From: Streptomyces griseochromogenes
Lineage (GTDB): Bacteria > Actinomycetota > Actinomycetes > Streptomycetales > Streptomycetaceae
NCBI RefSeq assembly: GCF_001542625.1
Contig: NZ_CP016279.1
Coordinates: forward strand, 9,300,001-9,364,000
DNA: 64,000 nucleotides
Direction of reading: 5' to 3'
The notes under the pieces were generated by a model, which saw only the letters and a program-made list of their open reading frames with translations, was not told the origin of the DNA and searched no databases. Both the position numbers and the translations under genes were made by a program. This document shows positions 24,912 through 51,860 of this stretch, piece after piece (the stretch's first letter is position 1; every line of letters begins with the position of its first letter).

Positions 24912-24985
24912 TCGGGGTGGCGGGATTTGAACCCACGGCCTTCCGCTCCCAAAGCGGACGCGCTACCAAGCTGCGCCACACCCCG
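24912..24985 (-). tRNA. tRNA-Pro (anticodon TGG)
   Basis: 74 nt. Acceptor arm CGGGGTG/CACCCCG, anticodon loop with TGG (TTTGGGA), T-loop GGTTCAAATCC and discriminator A. CCA is not encoded. Confidence 0.96.
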
Positions 24986-25148: not shown

Positions 25149-25219
25149 GCGGGCGTAGCTCAATGGTAGAGCCCTAGTCTTCCAAACTAGCTACGCGGGT
25201 TCGATTCCCGTCGCCCGCT
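25149..25219 (+). tRNA. tRNA-Gly (anticodon TCC)
   Basis: 71 nt. Acceptor GCGGGCG/CGCCCGC, anticodon TCC in CTTCCAA, T-arm GGTTCGATTCC and discriminator T. CCA is not encoded. It is followed by a 10-bp hairpin at 25230-25267. Confidence 0.96.
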
Positions 25220-42871: not shown

Positions 42872-42877
42872 TAGCTT
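42872..42877 (+). promoter_or_regulatory. -10 element of a leaderless leader ORF
   Basis: TAGCTT with TG two bases upstream (extended -10), ending 7 nt before the ATG at 42885. The mRNA would start at or next to that ATG. The -35 region (around 42848) is weak. Confidence 0.5.
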
Positions 42878-42884
42878 CGAACGC

Positions 42885-42971
42885 ATGGTTGCCCAGGCCC
42901 GGTACTTCACGTCGCGTCGCTATGTCGACCTGCGACGCCAGGGCACGGCCACCTGTCGCCGTCCGAGGTAG
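42885..42971 (+). CDS. Sulfur-type leader peptide (RRYVDL motif)
   Basis: 28 codons, translating to MVAQARYFTSRRYVDLRRQG plus TATCRRPR. The SRR[H/Y]VDLxR core and a Cys near the end match the short putative leader peptides often found before sulfur-metabolism genes in Streptomyces. No ribosome site is present, but a -10 hexamer lies 7 nt upstream, implying leaderless translation. A 7-bp GC hairpin (42973-42990) begins 2 nt after the stop, so ribosome position could control read-through into the ROK gene. The motif is seen directly; the attenuation role is inferred. Confidence 0.75.
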   Translation: MVAQARYFTSRRYVDLRRQGTATCRRPR

Positions 42972-43037: not shown

Positions 43038-44237
43038 ATGCCCCGTACCGCGGCATCCACCCTCGTCTCCCCCGTCCCCCGCGCCGCCGAGCGCGACCGG
43101 CGGCGTACCAGCGCCAGTGTCGTGCTGCGGTCCGTGCTGGAGCACGGGCCGGTGGCGCGCAGCACCATCGCCCGGCTGACCGGCCTTTCGCCCGCGTCGG
43201 TGACGGAGCACTGTGCCCGGCTGGCCGGGCTCGGACTGATCCGTGAGGAGGCGTCACCCCGCCGTTCGAACGGGGTCGGTCGGCCGCATGTGCCGCTCGA
43301 CCTCGACGGCGAGCGTTTCGTGGTCGGCGGGGTACACGTGGCCGTGCCGTACACCACGGTCGCACTGCTCGATCTGCGCGGCCGGGTGGTGGCCGAGCGG
43401 CGGTTGGCGCACGAGCGGACCGATCCGGGCCGGGTGCTCGCCCGGGCTGCCGAGGGCCTCGCGGCACTGCTCGCGCGGGATCCGGGCCGCCGGCCGCTCG
43501 GGGTCGGGGTCGCGGTGGGCGGCTGGGTGGACCGGGAGGCGGGCACCGTCGTCGAGCACGAGCTGCTGGGCTGGCGCGAGGTGCCGGTGCGGGAGCCGCT
43601 CGGCGCCCTCACCGGGCTGCCGGTCCACGTGGACGGGCACGCGCGGGCGTTGGTCAACGGCGAGCGGCTGTTCGGGCGGGCCCGGGGCAGTCGCAGCGTG
43701 CTGCACCTGTTCGTCGGCAACGTGGTCGACGCGGCTTTCGCCACCAACGACGAGGTGCACCACGGGCCCCGCTCGCAGGCCGGGACGATCGCCCATCTTC
43801 CGGTGCCGGGCGGCACCGGGCCGTGCGACTGCGGGCGCACCGGCTGCCTCCAGGTGGAGCTGAGCGAGCGGACGCTGTGCCGACGGGCCCGGGCGGCCGG
43901 AGTGATCGACGGGGTGAACCCGATGCACGTGGTGGCCGCGGCCGCGGCCGGTGACGCGGTGGCGCGGCGGCTGCTGGTGGAGCGGGCCCGGATGACCGGA
44001 CGGGCGGCCGGACTGCTGCTGGACGTGCTCAATCCGGAGACGATCGTCGTGACCGAGGTGGGGGTCATCCACTTCGAGGACTGCCTGCACGCGCTCAGGG
44101 AAGCGGCCGGAAATCGTCGTACGGCTGCCGTACTGCCGACGAGTTTCCCGGATTCCGTACTGGCGGTGGCGGGCGGGTCGGTGGCCCTTGACGTGCTGTA
44201 CCGGGACCCACTGTGCGCGTCACCTGAGGCTATTTAA
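43038..44237 (+). CDS. ROK-family transcriptional regulator
   Basis: 399 residues. The N-terminal winged helix-turn-helix (about 25-80, VARSTIARLTGLSPASVTEHC) binds DNA. The ROK domain follows with the zinc-binding cluster CDCGRTGCLQ. The kinase-type DxGxT phosphate loop is not conserved (GGVHVAVPYTTV), so it is a regulator rather than a sugar kinase. It stands between the two leader ORFs and upstream of the organosulfur genes, so it probably controls them, although sugars are the usual ROK ligands. The ribosome region GAGGAC-G-GTCCTC (43024-43036) is itself palindromic. Confidence 0.9.
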   Translation: MPRTAASTLVSPVPRAAERDRRRTSASVVLRSVLEHGPVARSTIARLTGLSPASVTEHCARLAGLGLIREEASPRRSNGVGRPHVPLDLDGERFVVGGVHVAVPYTTVALLDLRGRVVAERRLAHERTDPGRVLARAAEGLAALLARDPGRRPLGVGVAVGGWVDREAGTVVEHELLGWREVPVREPLGALTGLPVHVDGHARALVNGERLFGRARGSRSVLHLFVGNVVDAAFATNDEVHHGPRSQAGTIAHLPVPGGTGPCDCGRTGCLQVELSERTLCRRARAAGVIDGVNPMHVVAAAAAGDAVARRLLVERARMTGRAAGLLLDVLNPETIVVTEVGVIHFEDCLHALREAAGNRRTAAVLPTSFPDSVLAVAGGSVALDVLYRDPLCASPEAI

Positions 44238-44254
44238 TTCAGAAACTCGGAATG

Positions 44255-44284
44255 TTGACAGGGGTCGCTCGTGGCCGGGAACAT
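44255..44284 (+). promoter_or_regulatory. Promoter of the Cys-rich leader and organosulfur operon
   Basis: A consensus -35 TTGACA (44255-44260), 18-nt spacer and GAACAT as -10 (44279-44284). The predicted transcription start about 7 nt later coincides with the ATG at 44292. Confidence 0.55.
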
Positions 44285-44291
44285 GCTGGTC

Positions 44292-44330
44292 ATGGACCCG
44301 CTCACGAGCTGTCGCACCTTCTGTTGCTGA
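44292..44330 (+). CDS. Leaderless cysteine-rich leader peptide
   Basis: 12 codons: MDPLTSCRTFCC then TGA (an in-frame ATG at 44283 would add MLV but falls in the predicted -10). Three of the last six codons are Cys. The position, just after a TTGACA promoter and 111 nt before the ssuA-like gene, matches the polycysteine leaderless ORFs shown in mycobacteria to act as cysteine-responsive attenuators. Hairpin CGCGC-ATGAA-GCGCG (44339-44353) follows. An alternative pairing CTCACG (44301-44306) with CGTGAG (44366-44371) overlaps the ribosome footprint at the Cys codons. Function is inferred. Confidence 0.7.
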   Translation: MDPLTSCRTFCC

Positions 44331-44338
44331 CACATTGC

Positions 44339-44353
44339 CGCGCATGAAGCGCG
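44339..44353 (+). promoter_or_regulatory. Attenuator hairpin after the Cys leader
   Basis: CGCGC, ATGAA loop, GCGCG, then TGTTT. It starts 8 nt after the leader stop. A competing upstream-downstream pairing (44301-44306 with 44366-44371) encloses it. Confidence 0.45.
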
Positions 44354-44441
44354 TGTTTCCCACTGCGTGAGTTTCTCTTCGTCCGGCCTGCCTTCCCGGA
44401 TTTCGTGCTGCCTTTTCCGTCCTTTTCCTGGGAGTTCTCCC

Positions 44442-45482
44442 ATGCACCGTCGTGCCTTTCTCACCACCATGCTCGGCGCGTCCGCCGCCGTGAGTCTCAG
44501 CGGTTGCGCCAAGGGCGATGCCTCCGCCGACACCAAGGGCGCCTCCACCAGGCCGCTCGCCGACAAGGTTCCGGCCGGCACCAGCCTGAAGATCGCCTCG
44601 TACCAGAACGTGCAGCAGCTCCAGTTCAGGCTGGCGAAGCTGCCCGCGCTCCCCTTCACCGTGTCGAGCTGGGTGAACATCGGGGCCGGACCCGATGTCA
44701 TCAACGCCTTCCGCGCCAAGTCCCTGGACCTCGCCAACAACGCGGGCATCCCGCCGATCCAGGCGCACTACCAGGGCTTCGCCGCGAAGATCGTGGCGAT
44801 CGACATCACCCGCAAACCCAACTACCTCTTCGCGACCAAGCCCGGCAGCGACATCCGTACGGTCCGGGACTTCAAGGGCAAGAAGCTCGCCTTCTCCCAG
44901 GGCCAGGCGCAGGGAGTCGTACTCCTGCGGGCGCTGAAGCAGGCGGGACTGAAGTACGACGACGTGACGCTGGTCCCGCTGACCAGCAACCAGTTCCTGA
45001 CCGCCCTGCAGTCCGGGCAGGTGGACATCGCCCCGCTCGCCAACAGCCAGGCACCGGCCTACCTCAAGCAGTACACGGGCAAGGGCGCCCGCACCATCGC
45101 CACCGACGTCGTCGACCTGCTCAATCTGCTGTGGGCGCCGCAGTCCGTGCTGAACGACCCGGCGAAGGCCGCGGCGATCGCCGCGTACATCTCGCAGTGG
45201 GCCAGGGGCCAGGTGTGGCAGTACGAGCACTCGGACGTGTGGAACGAGCAGTTCTACGTCAAGACGCAGAACCTGACCCCGGAGCAGGCCCAGGGCATCT
45301 CCAGGCTCGCCAACAAGCCGCTGTTCCCGACCGGCTGGGACGAGGCGGTCAAGTGGGAGCAGGAGACCGCCGATCTGCTCGCCGAGGGCGGCTTCGTGAA
45401 GAAGTTCGATGTCTCCTCGCTCTTCGACCACCGCTTCGAGCCGATCGCCGCGAAGGCCGTACCGGCGGAGTACCGGAGGTGA
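44442..45482 (+). CDS. ssuA: Sulfonate-type ABC transporter substrate-binding lipoprotein
   Basis: 346 residues from ATG 44442 (GGGAG 8 nt upstream). The signal sequence RRAFLTTMLGASAAVSLSGC combines a twin-arginine motif with a lipobox (LSGC), so it is probably a Tat-exported lipoprotein. The remainder is the periplasmic-binding fold of the SsuA/NrtA/TauA group. It captures an organosulfur compound for the permease and ATPase encoded next. Its stop overlaps a possible GTG of the permease gene. Confidence 0.88.
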   Translation: MHRRAFLTTMLGASAAVSLSGCAKGDASADTKGASTRPLADKVPAGTSLKIASYQNVQQLQFRLAKLPALPFTVSSWVNIGAGPDVINAFRAKSLDLANNAGIPPIQAHYQGFAAKIVAIDITRKPNYLFATKPGSDIRTVRDFKGKKLAFSQGQAQGVVLLRALKQAGLKYDDVTLVPLTSNQFLTALQSGQVDIAPLANSQAPAYLKQYTGKGARTIATDVVDLLNLLWAPQSVLNDPAKAAAIAAYISQWARGQVWQYEHSDVWNEQFYVKTQNLTPEQAQGISRLANKPLFPTGWDEAVKWEQETADLLAEGGFVKKFDVSSLFDHRFEPIAAKAVPAEYRR

Positions 45483-45487
45483 GCTCC

Positions 45488-46327
45488 GTGACCACGACCA
45501 CGACCGCCGTGGCGGTGGCGGATGCCGGGGAACTCCCCCGGGTCCGCCGGCGCCGCCGTCTGTCCCCCGGCCGCCGCCTGCCCGCGGCCCGGCTGGCCGG
45601 CCCGCTGGTGCTCCCCGCCCTGTGGGCCGCCGCCTCGGCGGCCGGACAGCTCGACCCGGGTGCGATTCCGGCGCCCTGGACCGTGGTGCGCACGGGCGTC
45701 CGCCTGTGGACCGACGGCACGCTGCCGACCGACATCCTGACCTCGCTGGAGCGGGCCGCCTACGGCTTCGCGATCGGCCTGACCGCGGGTGTCGTACTCG
45801 CACTCGCCTCCGGGCTCAGCCGGGCCGGGGAGGCGCTGATCGACGGGACTGTGCAGCTCAACCGGGCGATCCCGACCCTCGGTCTGATCCCGCTGTTCAT
45901 CCTGTGGCTGGGCATCGGCGAGACCTTCAAGATCGCCATCATCGCGATCGTCGTCTACATCCCGATCTACCTGAACACGCATGCCGCACTGTCCGGCATC
46001 GACAGCCGGTACGTCGAACTCGCCGAGGTGCAGGGCCTGTCGAGGTTCGCCTTCATCCGGCAGATCGTGATCCCCGGGGCGCTGCCCGGATTCTTCGTGG
46101 GTCTCCGGCTCGGCGTCACCGGCTCCTGGCTGGGCCTGGTGGTCCTGGAGCAGATCAACGCCACCAGCGGTCTCGGCTATCTGATGTTCCAGGCGCAGAA
46201 CTACGGCCAGTCGGACGTCATCCTGGTCGGCCTGCTGATCTACGGCGTCTTCGGCCTGGTCTCCGACAGCGCGGTCCGTCTGATCGAACGGAGGGTGCTG
46301 TCGTGGCGCCGCACACTGAACAGCTGA
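45488..46327 (+). CDS. ssuC: Sulfonate-type ABC transporter permease
   Basis: 279 residues with about six membrane helices after a basic N-terminal tail. The EAA loop region reads ELAEVQGLSRFAFIRQIVIPGALPG, the coupling site for the ATPase. GTG 45488 is chosen because GGAGG (45475-45479) lies 8 nt upstream; GTG 45479, overlapping the ssuA stop, would add three residues. The 3' end overlaps the start of the ATPase gene by 25 nt. Confidence 0.9.
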   Translation: MTTTTTAVAVADAGELPRVRRRRRLSPGRRLPAARLAGPLVLPALWAAASAAGQLDPGAIPAPWTVVRTGVRLWTDGTLPTDILTSLERAAYGFAIGLTAGVVLALASGLSRAGEALIDGTVQLNRAIPTLGLIPLFILWLGIGETFKIAIIAIVVYIPIYLNTHAALSGIDSRYVELAEVQGLSRFAFIRQIVIPGALPGFFVGLRLGVTGSWLGLVVLEQINATSGLGYLMFQAQNYGQSDVILVGLLIYGVFGLVSDSAVRLIERRVLSWRRTLNS

Positions 46328-47073
46328 CCCGGCCCCCGGTACGGCTGCGGGGCCTGACCCGGTCGTTCGAGAGCCGTACCGTCCTCGACGGCATCGACCT
46401 GGACCTGCCCGCCGGGCAGTTCACGGCCCTGCTCGGGCACAGCGGCTCCGGCAAGAGCACGCTGCTCAGAGCCGTCGCGGGCCTGGACCACGGGGTCGCG
46501 GGCGGCGGGCAGCTCACCGCGCCCGAGCGGGTGTCGGTGGTGTTCCAGGACTCCCGGCTGCTGCCCTGGCGCCGGGTGCTGGACAACGTCCTGCTGGGCC
46601 TCACCGGCAAGGACGCCGAGGAACGCGGCCGGGCCGCGCTCGCGGAGGTCGGCCTGAAGGGCCGCGAGCGGGCCTGGCCGGGCCAGCTGTCCGGCGGCGA
46701 GGCACAGCGCGCCGCGCTCGCCCGCTCCCTGGTCCGCGAGCCGGAACTGCTCCTGGCCGACGAGCCGTTCGGGGCACTGGACGCGCTCACCCGGATCAGG
46801 ATGCACAGCCTGCTGCGCGAGCTGTGGGAGCGCCACCGGCCCTCCGTGCTGCTCGTCACCCACGACGTGGACGAGGCGATCGTGCTCGCCGACCGGGTCC
46901 TCGTCCTGGACCGGGGCCGTATCGGCCTGGACCTGACCGTCGACCGTCCCCATCCGCGCTCCTACCGCGAGCGTGGGGGTCCCCCCGGGTTCGAGCGAAG
47001 CCGAGAACTTGGGGGAGCTGGGCGAGACCGCGAGCGGCTGCTCGCCGCGCTGGGCGTGACCGAAGACCTGTGA
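46303..47073 (+). CDS. ssuB: Sulfonate-type ABC transporter ATPase
   Basis: 256 residues from GTG 46303 (GGAGG 8 nt upstream, inside ssuC). Walker A GHSGSGKS (45-52), signature LSGGEAQR, Walker B LLLADEPFG and H-loop VTHD are complete. Near the C-terminus about 18 residues (ERGGPPGFERSRELGGAG) are encoded by an inserted Streptomyces short repeat flanked by 10-bp direct repeats; the ATPase core is untouched. The following monooxygenase gene starts 91 nt downstream. Confidence 0.92.
   Translation: MAPHTEQLTRPPVRLRGLTRSFESRTVLDGIDLDLPAGQFTALLGHSGSGKSTLLRAVAGLDHGVAGGGQLTAPERVSVVFQDSRLLPWRRVLDNVLLGLTGKDAEERGRAALAEVGLKGRERAWPGQLSGGEAQRAALARSLVREPELLLADEPFGALDALTRIRMHSLLRELWERHRPSVLLVTHDVDEAIVLADRVLVLDRGRIGLDLTVDRPHPRSYRERGGPPGFERSRELGGAGRDRERLLAALGVTEDL
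46974..47026. repeat. REP/MITE-like repeat inserted in frame in ssuB
   Basis: A 53-bp G/C-rich element starting TGGGGGTCCCCCC and ending in GGGGGAGCTG..., of a kind scattered in Streptomyces genomes. It is bounded on both sides by the 10-bp direct repeat ACCGCGAGCG (46964-46973 and 47027-47036), resembling a target-site duplication. One repeat copy plus the element totals 63 bp, so the frame is kept. Confidence 0.6.
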
Positions 47074-47164: not shown

Positions 47165-48496
47165 ATGACCCGGCAACTCCATCTCAACGCGTTCCTGATG
47201 AACACCGGACACCACGAGGCCTCGTGGCGTCTTCCGGAGAGCGACCCGTACGCGCACGTCGACCTCGCCCACTACGTCGGCCTGGCGCGGATCGCCGAAC
47301 GCGGCACCTTCGACTCCCTCTTCCTCGCCGACGGCCCCCAGCTGTGGAACAACCTGGCCCAGCGCCCGGCCGGCGCCCTGGAACCGCTCACGCTGCTCAC
47401 CGCGCTGGCGACCGCCACCGAGCACATCGGCCTGATCGCCACCGCCTCCACCTCGTACAACTCCCCCTACAACCTGGCCCGCAAGTTCGCCTCGCTGGAC
47501 ATCATCAGCGGCGGCCGGGCGGGCTGGAACATCGTGACCACCGCCGGTGCCGAGGCCGCCCGCAACTTCGGTCTGGCCACCGAACCCGCGCACGCCGAGC
47601 GGTACGCCCGCGCCGCCGAGTTCCTCGACGTGGCCCTCAAGCTCTGGGACAGCTGGGAGGACGACGCGATCGTCGCCGACAAGGCGGCCGGGATCTGGGG
47701 CGACGACACCAAGATCCATCCGCCCCGGCACCAGGGGACGTACTTCAGCGTCGAAGGCGCGCTCAACCTGCCGCGCTCCCCGCAAGGCTACCCGCTGCTG
47801 GTACAGGCGGGCTCCTCGGACGACGGCAAGGCCTTCGCGGCCCGGTACGCGGAGGCGGTGTTCACCGCCCAGCAGACCCTCGCCGACGCGCAGGCCTTCT
47901 ACACCGACCTCAAGTCCCGTACGCGGCGGGCCGGACGCGATCCCGAGCACCTCAAGGTGCTGCCCGGGATCGTCCCCGTGCTCGGCTCGACCGAGGCCGA
48001 GGCGCGGGCCCACGAGCAGGTGCTGGAGGACCACATCGTGCCCGAGCACGCCCGGGCCCGGCTGGAGAACCTGCTGCGCCTTCCGCCCGGCGCCCTCGAC
48101 CTGGACCAGCGGCTCCCCGACGACCTGCCGCCCGAGTCGGCCGTCGAGGGCGCCAAGAGCCGCTACACGCTCGTCGTGGAGCTGGCCCGGCGCGAGCGGC
48201 TGACCGTGCGCCAGCTGATCGGACGGCTCGGCGGCGGACGCGGGCACCTCACCTTCGCCGGGACACCCGAGCAGGTCGCCGACCAGATCGCGACCTGGTT
48301 CACCCAGGGCGCCGCCGACGGCTTCAACATCATGCCCGCCGTGCTGCCCTCCGGCCTCGCGGCCTTCGTCGAGAACGTCGTACCGCTCCTGCGCGCCCGC
48401 GGTCTGCTCCGCACCGAGTACGGCCCCCGCCGGACCCTCAGGGAGCGCTACGGCCTTCCCCGCCCCGCCAACCAGCACACCGCAGCCCTCGTCTGA
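47165..48496 (+). CDS. LLM-class flavin monooxygenase, NtaA/SnaA/DszA family
   Basis: 443 residues, a luciferase-like TIM barrel using reduced FMN supplied by a separate reductase (none nearby). The N-terminus HLNAFLMNTGHHEASWRLP and the segment ISGGRAGWNIVTT are typical of the NtaA/DmoA/DszA branch rather than of alkanesulfonate monooxygenase SsuD. The branch acts on sulfones, dimethyl sulfide and nitrilotriacetate. Given the transporter and TauD neighbour it probably cleaves a C-S bond to release sulfite, though the compound is unknown. ATG 47165 is preceded by AAAGGA. Confidence 0.9.
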   Translation: MTRQLHLNAFLMNTGHHEASWRLPESDPYAHVDLAHYVGLARIAERGTFDSLFLADGPQLWNNLAQRPAGALEPLTLLTALATATEHIGLIATASTSYNSPYNLARKFASLDIISGGRAGWNIVTTAGAEAARNFGLATEPAHAERYARAAEFLDVALKLWDSWEDDAIVADKAAGIWGDDTKIHPPRHQGTYFSVEGALNLPRSPQGYPLLVQAGSSDDGKAFAARYAEAVFTAQQTLADAQAFYTDLKSRTRRAGRDPEHLKVLPGIVPVLGSTEAEARAHEQVLEDHIVPEHARARLENLLRLPPGALDLDQRLPDDLPPESAVEGAKSRYTLVVELARRERLTVRQLIGRLGGGRGHLTFAGTPEQVADQIATWFTQGAADGFNIMPAVLPSGLAAFVENVVPLLRARGLLRTEYGPRRTLRERYGLPRPANQHTAALV

Positions 48497-48511: not shown

Positions 48512-49402
48512 ATGTCCCTCGACATCACCAAGGTCACCGCGCGCATCGGCGCCCGGGTCTCCGGCGTCGACATCACCCGGCCGCTCGCCCCGGAGGAGGT
48601 CGCCGGGATCCGTGAGGCCCTGAACGTCCACAAGGCGCTCGTCTTCGACGCCCAGGGCCTGGACGACGCGGGCCAGCAGGCCTTCGCCCGTCACTTCGGC
48701 GACCTCACCACCGCCCACCCGACGGTCGGCGCCGTCGAGGACGCCCCGAACGTGCTGCCCGTGGACAGCGAACGCGGCCGCGCCAACCACTGGCACACCG
48801 ACGTCACCTTCGTCCTCAACCCGCCGCAGGCCAGCACCCTGCGCAGCATCACGATTCCGCCGTACGGCGGCGAGACCCTGATCGCCGACGCGGCGGGCGC
48901 CTACCGCGACCTGCCCGAGCCGCTGCGCCGCCTGGCGGACACGCTGTGGGCGGAACACACCAACGACTACGACTACGCGGTGCCGGACGAGGAGATCGAC
49001 GAGGAGAAGGCCGCCCAGCGCGCCCAGTTCACCTCGATCACGTACCGCACCGCCCACCCGGTGGTCCGCGTGCACCCGCTGACCGGGGAGCGCGGGCTGT
49101 TCATCGGTGGGTTCGCGCAGCGGATCGTCGGGCTGTCGGCGGGCGAGTCCCGCCGGATCCTCGACCTGCTCCAGGCATACGTCACCCGGCCCGAGAACGT
49201 CCTGCGCTGGCGCTGGTCGGAGAACCAGCTGGTCCTCTTCGACAACCGCATCACCCAGCACTACGCCATCGACAACTACGACGGGCGGCCCCGTCGCCTG
49301 CACCGGGTGACCGTGGCGGGTGACGTGCCGGTCGGCATCGAGGGCAAGGAGAGCTACTCGATCGAGGGCGACGCCTCGCACTACACGCCCGTGGCGGCGT
49401 AA
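48512..49402 (+). CDS. TauD/TfdA 2-oxoglutarate-dependent dioxygenase
   Basis: 296 residues with the iron triad H95-x-D97 (NHWHTD) and H250 (RITQHYAI), plus Arg265 for the 2-oxoglutarate carboxylate. Family members hydroxylate the carbon beside a sulfonate or sulfate ester, so taurine, alkanesulfonates or alkyl sulfates are possible substrates. It follows the flavin monooxygenase by 15 nt with a ribosome site in AAAGGA and is clearly in the same operon. Confidence 0.92.
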   Translation: MSLDITKVTARIGARVSGVDITRPLAPEEVAGIREALNVHKALVFDAQGLDDAGQQAFARHFGDLTTAHPTVGAVEDAPNVLPVDSERGRANHWHTDVTFVLNPPQASTLRSITIPPYGGETLIADAAGAYRDLPEPLRRLADTLWAEHTNDYDYAVPDEEIDEEKAAQRAQFTSITYRTAHPVVRVHPLTGERGLFIGGFAQRIVGLSAGESRRILDLLQAYVTRPENVLRWRWSENQLVLFDNRITQHYAIDNYDGRPRRLHRVTVAGDVPVGIEGKESYSIEGDASHYTPVAA

Positions 49403-51671: not shown

Positions 51672-51735
51672 GGCACCCCGAGTCGTCCTGCCTCGTGATC
51701 GTCTTCTCACCCTTCACGCAGGCAGGCGGATGAGA

Positions 51736-51772
51736 GAAGACCCCCGCAAGGACGTGACTTGCGGGGGTCTTC
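51736..51772. terminator. sodF terminator
   Basis: GAAGACCCCCGCAAG (51736-51750) pairs perfectly with CTTGCGGGGGTCTTC (51758-51772) around a 7-nt loop. Confidence 0.88.
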
Positions 51773-51860
51773 CCCCCCCGGGGGTCCACCGAACGGCTGA
51801 CCTGAAGTTCCACCGGGCACCCGTGTCCGCCAAATGCCCTGCTCGGCAAGGCTTTTGGGT

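Follow-up and report, generated by a model that had tools for sequence, protein, structure and literature searches.

Leaderless ORFs that carry contiguous Cys codons regulate the genes after them by attenuation in M. smegmatis (Canestrari 2020, as reported in PMC9094748 and PMC9031893). Mycobacterial cysteine leaders are described in these two articles and in PMC13236596, and the accessible text of PMC9031893 and PMC13236596 presents the systems as translational. Cysteine leader ORFs have also been put forward before cys operons in Mycobacterium and P. acnes and before B. longum cbs, with no terminators in the published description (Seliverstov et al. 2005, PMC1262725). For Streptomyces, the tabulated set in S. 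lividans TK24 comprises eight leader peptides (Ala, Ile, Thr, Trp, Leu, and Met types), none labelled Cys (PMC8079986 Table 4). The S. lividans metL leader before metNIQ (MSTTSDRTPATEATTTPGARCMCRRMCAF) has three Cys near its end in that source (RCMCRRMC); despite its Met label it may respond to Cys, or be of a mixed type (PMC8079986). Sulfur genes can also be governed by ROK regulators; C. glutamicum has two such proteins, SsuR and CysR (PMC2580772).

The locus described here lies in a 64,000-nucleotide stretch of Streptomyces griseochromogenes DNA (the window; source genome 10.76 Mb, genus Streptomyces). Its 12-codon leaderless ORF, MDPLTSCRTFCC-stop (44292..44330, + strand; ATG 44292, TGA 44328-44330), is most likely a cysteine-sensing leader peptide of an organosulfur operon, of the mycobacterial kind. 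The sensor half of this reading is well supported by comparative sequence evidence; a response to cysteine and attenuation at the leader are what we infer. The Cys codons are TGT 44310, TGT 44322, and TGC 44325, which places two adjacent Cys at the end and one four codons earlier (CRTFCC). The putative promoter (44255..44284, + strand) consists of a perfect TTGACA (44255-44260), an 18-nt spacer, and GAACAT (44279-44284); 7 nt separate GAACAT from ATG 44292, which comes 31 nt after TTGACA. GAACAT matches TATAAT at 3 of 6 bases, a poor -10 by consensus, so a simple promoter scan lists nothing at this position. The initial annotation had read the stretch 44255-44371 as a TTGACA promoter whose -10 ends 7 nt before the ATG of a Cys-rich ORF, and the sequence agrees on both points.

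The ORF precedes genes of an organosulfur-type operon, as had been claimed, all on the + strand: an SsuA-like substrate-binding lipoprotein (44442..45482), an SsuC/TauC-like ABC permease (45488..46327; PF00528, SsuC model 186 bits against a cut-off of 347), an ABC ATPase (46300..47073; GHSGSGKST read in frame, no family model applied), an NtaA/DmoA-family FMN-dependent monooxygenase (47165..48496; TIGR03860 544 bits, cut-off 279.7), and a TauD/TfdA-family dioxygenase (48512..49402; PF02668 206 bits). The call of the first gene as ssuA-like is upheld at the level of the Pfam NMT1 model, which is over its cut-off, and TIGR01728 gives 103 bits, under its cut-off of 163.5.

Compared with the mycobacterial polycysteine sORFs (Ms4527A and Ms5788A families, NCBIfam), the leader here likewise has a leaderless-type start, Cys near the stop, and first place in a sulfur operon. 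It differs in having no contiguous run of three Cys, in being mostly short (SCRTxCC type, 8-16 codons), and in its setting, a Streptomyces sulfonate operon with a ROK regulator, known from sequence alone. It resembles the candidate leaders of PMC1262725 in having Cys near the ORF stop and no clear terminator; the accessible part of that article gives none for Streptomyces cys genes, unlike here. With the S. lividans TK24 leaders it shares the genus and the leaderless arrangement, and it differs from that set in its cysteine type, as far as the labels in PMC8079986 go. The principle of cysteine-sensing leaderless leaders is thus known, and the short form here is a new variant. Also new are the ROK-linked site before the promoter, a further leaderless leader ahead of the ROK gene, and UGU at set Cys positions. 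The literature searched holds no description of this leader by title or abstract start; subscription papers lay mostly outside that search, which is not proof that the leader is unpublished.

The comparative evidence comes from 392 genomes of the genus searched with the downstream binding protein (SBP, E up to 1e-100), 125 of which carry a relative: 98 at 76% identity or more (the window's own included) and 27 more distant at 51-59%. Upstream DNA was compared for the 98 close loci (97 plus the window) and for 23 of the 27 in the distant clade. Of the 98 close loci, 94 carry a conserved site that leads directly into TTGACA (in two of the 94 by a relaxed pattern only). An ATG follows TTGACA in every one of these 94 operator-bearing loci, at 31 nt in 91 and at 30 nt in three, so the proposal that the start is positioned as for a leaderless mRNA holds throughout. 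By an anchored scan, all 94 ORFs have at least two Cys among their last six codons. Their lengths are 8, 11, 12, 13, 15, 16, 27, 51, and 54 codons, and the distance from leader stop to gene, modulo three, is spread 34/33/27 across the 94 loci. As all nine lengths end Cys-rich, indels occur yet the frame is preserved. An alignment across Streptomyces, named beforehand as the check on conserved Cys codons with drifting flanks, was run and came out positive: N-terminal codons drift or gain indels and the Cys codons stay.

A loose scan of 450 nt, which asked for two or more Cys among the final six codons of a short ORF, gave matches in 94/98 orthologous upstream regions, against 1-9% in the controls (antisense 1/98; ROK coding sequence 2/95; mononucleotide shuffles 44/490). 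On inspection of the 94 matches, one (L099) is spurious, three (L133, L142, L162) are pieces of a long form, and one (L131) lies in another frame next to a genuine leader. At the four loci without a match (L126, L136, L147, L156) the leader is of the long form, and long forms were read by eye and with the anchored scan. The strict form CR[TA]xC[CR]-stop occurs in 88/98 orthologous regions and in none of the sequences of all three controls; ortholog counts of this kind are not independent, because the genomes are related. No Cys-rich short ORF is present in the 450 nt scanned at the 23 distant-clade loci examined (of 27).

The leader seems attached to the operon rather than to one gene. Selecting by the upstream site alone, a scan of named genomes returned at least 119 stretches, a set that overlaps the 98 loci; two of the stretches end before the ORF does. 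Among the listed stretches, 116 of 117 readable ones have an ATG ORF at 30-31 nt, and 115 of these 116 are Cys-rich at the end. The exceptions among the listed matches are an ATG ORF that ends RTLCH and an ORF that starts with GTG and ends HCC. The first gene after the leader, among 116 listed site-selected loci, is the SBP in 109 and tauD in one, and is not callable in six where the DNA ends. In genome G364 (L191, G364:C70:83000-89500), ROK gene, site, leader, and tauD stand in a row, and no transporter or monooxygenase gene was found in that 6.5 kb stretch; it is this leader before tauD that points to a tie with the operon.

In the proposed mechanism, transcription would start at or beside ATG 44292, as the spacing suggests, and a 70S ribosome would initiate on the bare AUG. 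Scarce Cys-tRNA would stall it at the first or later Cys codons within the conserved SCRTxCC-stop block, and plentiful cysteine would let it reach the leader stop. The position of the ribosome would then decide expression of the transporter-monooxygenase operon, with more scavenging at low cysteine. Since the terminal Cys codons are kept in frame across relatives, the leader probably lets the operon switch on at low cysteine. Several observations count against this explanation: the poor -10, two ROK-less loci (L095, L108) that keep the leader without its usual TTGAC, and a conservation of Arg, Thr, and wobble positions within the block that exceeds what a bare run of Cys would need. If the explanation is correct, the Streptomyces organosulfur operon has a cysteine sensor that lends itself to testing, and the 8-codon minimal form MSCRTLCC could simplify work on amino-acid sensing by leaderless leaders.

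With the sensor held the same, two outputs have been considered. The first is early termination, Rho-dependent or hairpin-assisted: a ribosome that finishes the leader would open the C/U-rich leader to Rho, and a stalled one would keep it closed or paired. This is a serious candidate that we stop short of calling probable. C exceeds G between leader stop and gene in every strict-form ortholog (88/88; overall composition C 39.5, G 23.3, T 27.7, A 9.5%), and Rho is proposed for mycobacterial cys leaders in the accessible part of PMC1262725. However, C also exceeds G upstream in the leader-less distant clade (42.6 vs 25.4%), and 13% of 100-nt windows in the 64-kb window are as C-skewed as the leader-to-gene stretch. 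A small GC hairpin follows the stop in most orthologs, but these hairpins are just slightly better than shuffles: the best-stem score of post-stop windows has a mean z of 1.0 (83 distinct), against 0.38 in the next 48 nt and -0.45 in the distant clade. Their folding energy has a mean z of -0.56 (91 windows), against -0.81 in the next 48 nt; windows that follow the ROK leader average -0.97, and those of the distant clade 0.11.

The hairpin of the window itself, CGCGC-ATGAA-GCGCG (44339..44353, + strand), is there as the initial annotation described it; as a conserved terminator it did not stand up, its statistics being weak. Relatives mostly carry differing GC hairpins, and the alignment consensus retains just four of its pairs, so stem z, folding z, and consensus pairs together give insufficient support for a conserved element. 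The search for an intrinsic terminator returned one weak terminator-like match (44350-44369) where 0.5 were expected, and no common U tract was seen after the ortholog best stems, which varied. The other pairing proposed, CTCACG (44302-44307) with CGTGAG (44366-44371), also exists in the window; it occurs in 10/94 loci only and is rejected as the general mechanism. Leader-to-gene complementarity in the orthologs barely exceeds that of shuffled sequence (5.49 vs 5.27 bp), the whole 5' region folds with an ordinary z of -0.68, and no Rfam family reaches its gathering score at the leader locus. The orthologs yielded neither a conserved terminator or antiterminator nor a conserved switch at the ribosome-binding site, with competing pairings beyond CTCACG/CGTGAG searched less than exhaustively.

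The second output is translation attenuation, to which we give the same tentative weight: leader RNA, or the self-complementary region GGGAGTTCTCCC, would mask the Shine-Dalgarno until a ribosome stalls upstream. In the window, GGGAG and a self-complementary spacer TTCTCCC occupy 44430..44441 (+ strand) before ATG 44442. The self-complementary region is common in the orthologs and folds alone at -6.3 kcal/mol, with GGAGTCCTCCCATG the commonest form (27/98); the GG[AG]G-to-start match is absent in 23/23 distant-clade loci. The mycobacterial systems being described as translational (PMC9031893, PMC13236596, in their accessible text) also speaks for this output. Against it, modelled Shine-Dalgarno accessibility, averaged over 88 loci, is 0.146 with a stalled and 0.141 with a terminated ribosome, and the free state gives the same, so the accessibility model was set aside as an output switch for want of a mean effect. 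The distance from leader to gene also differs widely between loci, 111 nt from leader stop to ATG 44442 in the window and 111 to 317 nt among orthologs.

Codon choice within the block bears on the nature of the sensor. In the 88 strict forms, TGT fills the first Cys position in 85 (TGC in the other 3) and the second in 88/88, and the third position is TGC in 81, TGT in 3, and Arg in 4 (the four that end CR). The Arg between the Cys codons is CGC in 88/88, Thr is retained in 82/88, as ACC or ACT, and Leu is CTC in 38, CTT in 30, and CTG in one (L165). TGT makes up 182/281 Cys codons in the 94 leaders and 90/90 in the leaders before the ROK gene, against 39/588 in the ROK genes. Leaders matching NF042934, a cis_reg_atten family of putative actinobacterial leader peptides, behave similarly: in 33 parsed of 37 (L033-L040 and L327-L355, from this genome and a class-wide draw), the Cys eight residues past the L of the VDL core (L+8) is UGU in 32/32, with one non-Cys, and a Cys directly after VDL is UGC in 15/16. 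Because UGU is fixed at set Cys positions, selection seems to act on the bases, beyond Cys identity alone.

One reading of this constraint is that the peptide itself acts, by sequence-specific arrest or as a small Cys peptide, or that the block is an RNA element, and not a simple hungry-codon sensor. The invariant CGC, the retained Thr, the near-fixed TGT codons, and the constant UGU at a single position of related leaders all favour it, but the peptides range in length between 8 and 54 residues and a candidate stem in the block is no more stable than synonymous recodings, and we consider it rather unlikely. This stem begins at the first Cys codon and ends shortly after the stop (44310..44332, + strand; UGUCGCAC with GU.GC.GACA, two bulged U). 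Its cells are 96.8% paired across 50 distinct windows, against 12.5-67.0% in slid controls, and the nucleotide directly 3' of the leader stop is C in 50/50 distinct windows (92/94 with long forms included). No double-sided changes occur across the 50 windows, and the pairing is weak evidence because the pairs hardly vary. As a cause of UGU the stem was rejected: natural sequences rank at a median of 0.50 (n=48) among synonymous recodings.

A variant of the cysteine-sensing reading, which we regard as possible but doubtful, is that sensing goes through one fixed UGU in conserved nucleotide context, not through a run of Cys codons. The sensor would then lie in how Cys-tRNA reads UGU by wobble, or in an RNA element that surrounds this codon, and two such leaders in series would tune the ROK regulator and the operon. 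The fixed UGU codons raise a question that synonymous-codon change can answer.

Upstream of the leader lies a gene for a ROK-family protein with a MarR-like N-terminus (43038..44237, + strand; Pfam PF00480 110.9 bits; MarR_2 25.3 bits against a gathering score of 27), a candidate local regulator. A conserved site, TTAATTCAGAAACTCGGAATG (44234..44254, + strand), abuts the -35 and is a candidate ROK operator. It has one exact match in this genome, the next best having two mismatches. The site occurs at 94/94 loci where a ROK gene is present, complete or in part (92 by a stricter pattern and two more by a relaxed one; at L163 the ROK gene is partly on the contig), and at 0/4 loci without. In the distant clade a ROK gene at 48-54% identity lies upstream, farther away, in 22/23 loci (one partial), and the site is absent from the 23 loci examined. 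Because site and ROK gene co-occur, the local ROK regulator probably sets initiation through 44234-44254. The likeness to SsuR and CysR is one of context, a ROK protein beside sulfur genes. The reverse strand of 44232-44241, TGAATTAAAT, fits the CysR box TGAAtnnAAt (the SsuR box is similar in the accessible part of PMC2580772), which is a lead only, with just the TGAATTAA part common to most orthologs here.

That this regulator alone controls the operon, and that the ORF is a conserved start region which senses nothing, is very improbable: the site going with the ROK gene and the C. glutamicum precedent (PMC2580772, as far as accessible) speak for it, but it leaves the in-frame terminal Cys codons across nine ORF lengths unexplained, and a SCRTLC-type leader persists in 3/4 loci that lack both ROK gene and site (L095, L108, L165). 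At L095 and L108 the leader is retained without TTGAC at the usual position. Three of the four ROK-less loci (G304, G013, G110) carry SBPs close in score, so the independent events behind these four loci may be fewer than four. In G013 (L099, L193), no ROK gene was found, its NF042934-type leader is still there, and the site is degenerate; by reading of the sequence, the SCRT leader of L099 is lost.

The second, separate leaderless leader ORF precedes the ROK gene (42885..42971, + strand; MVAQARYFTSRRYVDLRRQGTATCRRPR, one Cys, TGT), with a -10-like TAGCTT (42872-42877) ending 7 nt before ATG 42885. Sulfur regulator gene and target operon would thus each bear a leader. MVAQARYFTSRRYVDLRRQGTATCRRPR scores 22.1 and 20.2 bits against NF042934 in two scans (cut-off 27), and its counterpart in G013 reaches 29.2 bits, over the cut-off. 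A leader of [VI]DL...C type stands before the ROK gene in 89/89 orthologous loci with enough upstream sequence, 9/98 being not assessable. By its title, a 2014 article by Lyubetsky et al. deals with PF00480/PF14340 proteins and sulfur metabolism; cysteine leaders next to ROK genes may have been reported there already.

The initial annotation had called a Streptomyces version of such leaders little described, and this needs qualifying. NF042934 already covers a "putative leader peptide", and at least eight leaders exceed its cut-off in this genome (150/372 candidates scored). They stand beside genes read from sequence as sulfur-related: flavin monooxygenase, cysteine-dioxygenase-like, sulfur carrier with cysteine synthase, nitrite/sulfite reductase, SsuD-like monooxygenase, rhodanese with SseC-like, SsuC-like permease, and glutathione-transferase-like genes. 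A class-wide draw gave matches over the cut-off in 45/60 genomes. NF042934 leaders and the leader here share genomes, sulfur-gene neighbourhoods (by reading), and a UGU at the LC/CR position, and one such leader stands before the ROK gene just upstream of MDPLTSCRTFCC; the 12-codon leader lacks their RxVDLxRV core. MDPLTSCRTFCC was unmatched by every leader family model tried. It is not among the 15 NF042934 matches (cut-off 27, E up to 10) found with 150/372 candidates scored, its 12 residues being too short for hmmscan, and was not assigned to that family. Nor is it among the seven matches in the genome to NF042933 (Ms5788A, cut-off 45), for which 137/137 candidates were scored.

Long ortholog forms come nearer to the latter family. 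MSSSRVQVPLTKCRVVDLMRVARTLCC scores 20.9 bits against NF042933 (E 2e-4, under the cut-off of 45), others score 20.4, 14.6, and 11.9 bits, and a fifth, that of L142, has no match either in part or at full length. Removing VVDLMRVAR from the long form PLTKCRVVDLMRVARTLCC leaves PLTKCR-TLCC, near the short PLTSCRTLCC, and for this reason the short form would have derived from the long form, or the reverse. Gene finders readily overlook ORFs this short, so the number of such leaders is probably underestimated.

At five loci (L114, L117, L128, L131, L138), a TGTTGCTGAC block with Cys-Cys-stop codons is repeated directly past the leader stop, as if by local duplication. Elsewhere in the window, two tRNA genes face apart at 24912-24985 (- strand) and 25149-25219 (+ strand), and a sodF sRNA (RF02790, 92.7 bits) lies at 51683-51773, right after a gene read as iron superoxide dismutase.
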